From Actinomycetota bacterium (GTDB taxonomy: Bacteria; Actinomycetota; Thermoleophilia; UBA2241), in NCBI GenBank assembly GCA_026392275.1, contig JAPLCM010000149.1, positions 1 through 53,462 on the forward strand: 53,462 nt of DNA. The letters are read 5' to 3'. Shown piece by piece: positions 9,497 to 35,149 of this stretch. Each line of letters starts with the position of its first letter. The first letter of the stretch is position 1. The position numbers and the translations under genes are program-made. The notes beneath the pieces are model-generated. The model saw only the letters and a program-made list of their open reading frames with translations. It was not told the origin of the DNA and ran no database searches.

Positions 9497-9573
<77 letters not shown>

Positions 9574-33948: not shown

Positions 33949-34683
33949 ATGACGGGGGGTCTCGAAGTGGAGGAACAGCAGTCCGAAGAACTCTGGGTCA
34001 TCGTCGCCGCGGCCGGGGAAAGCCGCCGCATGGGCCTGCCTGACGGCGAGTCCAAGCAGTTCCTCAAGCTCGGCGGCGAGCCGATCCTCAATCACTCAGT
34101 GCGGCGGCTGCTGGCCATGCCGCAGGTCCACGGCCTCGTGGTGGTGCTGCACCCGTCGCACACGGTGCGCTTCGCCGGCGAGCTGCTCGCCTTCGACGAC
34201 GCCAAGCCTCTGCTGATCGCCGAAGGCGGTCGCAAGCGCTCCGACTCGGTGCGTGCCGGTCTGCTCGAGGTGCCGGCGTCGGCGGCCGTCATCGCCGTCC
34301 ACGACGGCGCCCGGCCGCTGTTCTCCCGCCATGTCTTCGAACGCTGCATCGCGGCGCTCGCCGACGTCGACGGAGCAGTCCCCGGCATCGAGGTCAGCGA
34401 CACCCTCAAGCGCGCCGACCTCACCGGAGCCGTCGCGGCGACGGTCGACCGCAGCGGCCTTTGGGCCGTGCAGACGCCGCAGGTCTTCAGGGCTGCCGTT
34501 CTCCGCGACGTGTACTCGCGCGTCGATCTCGACGGCGCCACCGACGACGCTACGCTTCTCGAGACGGGCGGCTACAAAGTCGGCCTCGTGGTGTCCACGC
34601 CGGCAAACGTCAAGATCACCACGCCGACCGACCTCCCGCTGGCCGGCGCGTTGCTCTCGTGGGAGGTCGAGGCCGACGTTTAG
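33949..34683 (+). CDS. ispD: 2-C-methyl-D-erythritol 4-phosphate cytidylyltransferase
   Basis: WVIVAAAGESRRMGLPDGESKQFLKLGGEPIL; VHDGARPLFSRH; AVQTPQVFRAAVL; stop TAG 34681-34683. Confidence 0.9.
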   Translation: MTGGLEVEEQQSEELWVIVAAAGESRRMGLPDGESKQFLKLGGEPILNHSVRRLLAMPQVHGLVVVLHPSHTVRFAGELLAFDDAKPLLIAEGGRKRSDSVRAGLLEVPASAAVIAVHDGARPLFSRHVFERCIAALADVDGAVPGIEVSDTLKRADLTGAVAATVDRSGLWAVQTPQVFRAAVLRDVYSRVDLDGATDDATLLETGGYKVGLVVSTPANVKITTPTDLPLAGALLSWEVEADV

Positions 34684-35149
34684 GGTAGGGAGCGGCTACG
34701 ACGCACACCGCTTCGCCGACGGACGCCGTCTGGTGCTCTGCGGGGTCGAGATCGATCACTCGCAGGGCCTGGCCGGCCACTCCGACGCCGATGTCGGCGC
34801 CCATGCGCTCATGGACGCCTTGCTCGGCGCTGCCGGGCTCGGCGACATCGGCGACGCGTTTCCTGATACGGATCCAGCGTTCGCCGGCATCTCGAGCATC
34901 GAGTTGCTGCGCCGCGTGATCGGCCGTCTGGCCGAGAGCGGCTGGATGGTCGCCAACGCGGACGTGACGCTCGTCTGCGAGCGGCCTCGCCTGTCGAGCT
35001 ATAGGTCCGCGATGCGGGACGTGCTCGCGAGCGCCCTGGGGGTCGCGAACGATGCGGTCAGCGTCAAGGCGACGACCACCGAAGGCATGGGGTTCGAGGG
35101 CCGCGGTGAGGGCATCGCGGCTCTCGCGGTGTGCCTGCTCACCCGTTGA
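34676..35149 (+). CDS. ispF: 2-C-methyl-D-erythritol 2,4-cyclodiphosphate synthase; start codon non-canonical or reached by recoding
   Basis: FRVGSGYDAHRFADGRRLVLCGVEIDHSQGLAGHSDADVGAHALMDALLGAAGLGDIGDAFPDTD; no ATG/GTG/TTG in frame near the N-terminus; nearest near-cognate is ACG 34676. Confidence 0.85.
   Translation, partial: TFRVGSGYDAHRFADGRRLVLCGVEIDHSQGLAGHSDADVGAHALMDALLGAAGLGDIGDAFPDTDPAFAGISSIELLRRVIGRLAESGWMVANADVTLVCERPRLSSYRSAMRDVLASALGVANDAVSVKATTTEGMGFEGRGEGIAALAVCLLTR

Follow-up and report, generated by a model that had tools for sequence, protein, structure and literature searches.

The ispD-ispF junction described here raises the question of how ispF can be translated when its reading frame lacks an ordinary start codon. 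The window, i.e. the whole stretch of 53,462 nucleotides that was analysed, belongs as contig C202 to a Thermoleophilia MAG consisting of 334 contigs with an estimated contamination of 7.8%, from a family of actinobacteria that are uncultured, and the features relevant to the question are collected in Table 1. The 3' end of ispD reads GAC GTT TAG, and the ispF frame, which at the junction reads GGG AGG TCG AGG CCG ACG TTT AGG GTA GGG AGC GGC TAC GAC, passes directly through the ispD stop codon. No ATG, GTG or TTG is found in frame near the conserved FRVGSGYDAHRF of IspF, and the closest upstream in-frame ATG of the window, which is not common to its relatives, lies 117 codons 5' of the conserved Arg and thereby deep within ispD.

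Table 1. Positions of the ispD-ispF junction features and of the initiator tRNA in the window.
Feature	Position	Strand	Remarks
ispD	33949..34683	+	244 aa; stop TAG 34681-34683 inside ispF; TIGR00453 205.7 bits, cut-off 181.3
SD-like GGGAGG	34661..34666	+	in ispD tail; GGAGG (34662-34666) ends 9 nt 5' of ACG
ACG, proposed ispF start	34676..34678	+	ACG in 10/13 family genomes
TTT, IspF codon 2 (Phe)	34679..34681	+	TTT/TAT in 7/7 CTG-less genomes
ispF	34676..35149	+	157 aa counted from ACG; stop 35147-35149; 8 nt overlap with ispD
Initiator tRNA-Met	9497..9573	+	ARAGORN and sequence; CAU, GGG/CCC anticodon stem, 1-72 mismatch

Translation from the ACG gives a full-length IspF with the N-terminal D-x-H motif, which matches TIGR00151 over residues 3-156 with 195.7 bits (cut-off 116.45). 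Its alignment with IspFs of solved structure begins at residue 2, which puts the ACG one residue ahead of the Met of E. coli IspF. It is the sole IspF match in the window's genome, which holds no second copy of the gene. Furthermore, IspH is present in all 15 family genomes and HMG-CoA reductase in none of them, and the MEP pathway therefore appears to be the only isoprenoid route in the family and IspF should be essential; the missing reductase likewise speaks against an alternative route that would make ispF dispensable. The dN/dS of about 0.13-0.26 within the window's genus is indicative of purifying selection on the gene.

The initial annotation, made from the window alone, had claimed that the ispF frame has no ATG, GTG or TTG nearby, and this is borne out both in the window and in 12 of the 13 family genomes that contain the junction, all of which lack a usable canonical ispF start. 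The exception is G010, in which an ordinary ATG is found 40 nt past the ispD stop, that stop being TGA. ACG occurs in six genomes of the window's genus (g1) and in two each of g4 and g2, i.e. in three genera, while G008 has CTG-ATA and G011 CTG-ACA with the second codon at the same place. Six of the 12 genomes (G004, G005, G007, G008, G011 and G013) have no ATG, GTG or TTG in the entire open frame, and in-frame stops lie only 9 (G004) and 8 (G008) codons upstream of the conserved Arg, which makes an upstream start impossible there; on the evidence of these six genomes we reject a canonical start further upstream. When 399 Thermoleophilia genomes were searched for the TAG-overlapping junction, exact matches were confined to these 12 genomes, and outside the family 103 of 113 IspF loci have a canonical start at most 13 codons from GxGYD, the lack of a canonical ispF start in the family being beyond chance. 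It should also be mentioned that the ispF of G012 (L115, G012:C116) is interrupted by ambiguous bases and by a change of frame, which probably reflect a gap in the assembly. In another Thermoleophilia family, the ispF of L217 (G288) seems to start with CTG in a CTGA overlap at about 1490-1500, where its relatives have ATGA or GTGA, and in L103, from a termite-gut Oscillospiraceae MAG, no canonical ispF start is found 5' of position 227 in the stretch that separates an in-frame TGA from the active site, the candidates being CTG or ATA behind GGGAG.

The codons chosen in the tail of ispD suggest that two start states exist in the family, one in which CTG gives M-T-S-R-V-G and one in which ACG gives M-F/Y-R-V-G. 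In five genomes (G013, G008, G007, G012 and G011) the third-last IspD residue is spelled GCT or ACT, which creates a CTG one codon before the ACG position, and T is found at only 6% of Ala/Thr third bases in the ispD genes of these genomes. The seven genomes without this CTG, which are those of g1 together with G009, spell the last IspD residue GTT or GTA, which makes residue 2 of IspF Phe or Tyr, and GTT and GTA account for 4.8% of the Val codons in their ispD genes. Outside the family, R-V-G is preceded by F or Y in 37 of the 113 IspF loci and by L, M, I or V in 58. Since fourfold-site identity between genera is about 0.4-0.6 and thus near saturation, shared ancestry alone is an unlikely cause for the retention of these rare codons. 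The rare ispD codons can be understood only if this stretch is read in the ispF frame, although the argument is post hoc and concerns few independent events, and the sister genera probably start ispF at the CTG one codon upstream of the ACG position. In a tree of ispD and ispF, g1 forms a firm group, with G009 and G013 close to it on open forks. The simplest count is two losses of the CTG, and a single loss would also be possible.

All 12 genomes that keep the overlap carry GGGAG at a fixed distance upstream of the proposed start. The motif may serve as a putative SD for ispF, but it lies within conserved Trp-Glu codons of IspD and its conservation may stem from IspD alone, so that selection for an SD is not proven. 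In the window the motif is part of a strong predicted hairpin (34631-34669, CGACCTCCC/GGGAGGTCG); this SD-sequestering structure is strong in the window's genome and is not conserved in the relatives. A short stem, CCGAC-GTNTAGG-GTCGG, with the ispD TAG in its loop is likewise predicted at 34671-34689, but its inner five pairs are intact in only 8 of 12 genomes and broken in the window's genome as well as in G006, G002 and G004, for which reason we do not treat it as functional. An altered initiation machinery is improbable, since IF3 is found in 14 of 15 family genomes and the initiator tRNA of the window looks ordinary, leaving no sign of relaxed start selection. As to near-cognate starts across the clade, a comparison of about 20 syntenic window genes, in which shadow frames were sorted by eye and the coding filter dropped ispF itself, revealed no further genuine gene in which a canonical start common to the relatives is missing.

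On the basis of these observations we consider it probable that ispF is translated by near-cognate initiation at ACG coupled to translation of ispD. Translation of ispD would deliver a 30S subunit or a post-termination ribosome to the junction, where it would pair with the GGGAG(G) near the end of ispD and begin IspF with fMet at the ACG to give M-F-R-V-G; in the sister genera the start would most likely be the CTG. At the position where IspF proteins start, no codon but the ACG differs from ATG by a single base, and ACGTTTAG at 34676-34683 constitutes a same-strand start/stop overlap whose -8 spacing would hold the ribosome finishing ispD beside a weak start. That the ACG acts as the initiation codon, that coupling brings the ribosome to it and that ispF is expressed at a low level or in dependence on ispD are points which we infer. 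Against initiation at ACG it counts that the codon may persist passively, that the SD may be conserved as nothing but Trp-Glu codons, and that ACG is a weaker start codon than CUG, which is weak itself. Expression from CUG in E. coli amounts to 0.86% of that from AUG (PMC11497404). The literature searched yielded no bacterial case of ACG initiation. Coupling may compensate for the weak codon, or small amounts of IspF may suffice.

Several other explanations have to be weighed against initiation at ACG. A one-base sequencing or assembly error, which the initial annotation took as its null hypothesis, might be expected of a MAG as fragmented and contaminated as this one, but can practically be dismissed, since the ACG stands at the same place in 10 genomes of three genera. 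The codon recurs in nine other family MAGs, which are named after different sampling sites, so that it is not an assembly artefact, and a pattern of ACG and CTG kept in so many genomes cannot be put down to sequencing. In chloroplasts, C-to-U editing of the RNA is known to turn ACG into AUG (PMC9845219), but such editing is very improbable here, since G008 has ATA and G011 has ACA, neither of which it could convert to AUG; the literature searched held no precedent from bacteria. Initiation may alternatively occur in all genomes at some other non-canonical codon or by 70S scanning near the stop, the ACG being a mere by-product of an ispD Asp codon. This notion is in agreement with GAC making up about 85-88% of the Asp codons of ispD, a preference that might passively preserve the ACG as ispD sequence, with the ATA and ACA found at its place, and with the AGG codons, one base from ATG, that sit 5' of it in most genomes. 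The earlier AGG positions however overlap or abut the SD, and in G004 and the other genomes without CTG the ACG alone makes a good candidate at normal SD spacing, and we find such a start elsewhere improbable.

The second route proposed by the initial annotation, by analogy to prfB, was a +1 slip at the end of ispD. As a programmed frameshift (xTN-TAG-G) it would make an IspD-IspF fusion the only source of IspF. In favor of it, each of the 12 overlap-keeping genomes retains the +1 offset of the frames and the TAG, enzymes of the fused IspDF type are known (PMC5821942), in-frame fusions with short linkers occur in L041, L059, L078, L106 and L110, and the residue preceding RVG would be Val or Ile, which IspF tolerates. 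However, the hallmarks of such a slip are missing: the P-site codon varies between GTT, GTA, GTG, GTC and ATC, none of which would re-pair well after a +1 shift, the SD-like GGGAGG is separated from the GTT by 11 nt as opposed to 3 nt in prfB, and the stop is TAG-G and not TGA-C. Furthermore, the shift leaves both the T that creates the CTG and the Phe/Tyr codon unexplained, and we regard it as improbable, as we do a start at another codon. Recoding as a whole, whether by a +1 shift at the ispD UAG that yields a fusion without P-site re-pairing or, less likely, by editing of the ACG, is unlikely. A +1 shift would give the junction-spanning peptide EVEADVRVGSGYDAHR, and initiation at ACG would give (M)FRVGSGYDAHR. 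Of the interpretation originally offered, it is thus the near-cognate ACG behind GGAGG that stands as the best-supported reading, while the slip lacks its hallmarks and the base error is refuted; the CTG of the sister genera could not have been seen from the window.

If ACG is indeed the start, a very weak codon has been conserved for an essential metabolic gene across a genus, and although a single synonymous change in ispD, GAC to GAT, would turn it into ATG, the ACG has been kept. It would then become possible to test whether near-cognate initiation can be rescued by stop/start coupling, and likewise how GC pressure in one gene can erode the start codon of an overlapping one. On a practical note, gene callers that accept only ATG, GTG and TTG will miss, truncate or over-extend ispF throughout the family.

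The arrangement is reminiscent of several known systems. As in the bacterial genes with near-cognate starts, such as the AUU of infC and the rare CUG, there is no AUG, GUG or UUG available to the frame and the presumed start is one base from AUG. The infC start serves autoregulation by IF3, whereas ispF is a metabolic gene with ACG as its candidate codon and a start inside the upstream gene. The prfB frameshift shares with the junction an SD-like motif upstream of a stop and a needed frame at +1, but it follows almost universal rules, namely a CTTT slippery codon, an SD-like motif 3 nt before it and TGA-C (PMC12421855), and the junction has neither a conserved slippery codon nor this SD distance, and has TAG-G in place of TGA-C. 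In the bifunctional IspDF enzymes (NF006899) ispD and ispF are likewise adjacent and in the same order, but they form a single continuous reading frame, whereas here ispF is offset by +1 from ispD, which retains its own conserved stop in each of the 12 genomes that keep the overlap. The -8 nt coupled pairs (NTGNNTGA; PMC12548453), whose arrangement is one of three enriched between stop and start in neighbouring gene pairs (PMC12548453), have the same spacing as the junction, the same strand and an SD-like motif within the upstream gene, the difference being that the ispD-ispF pair has ACG instead of NTG and TAG as its stop.
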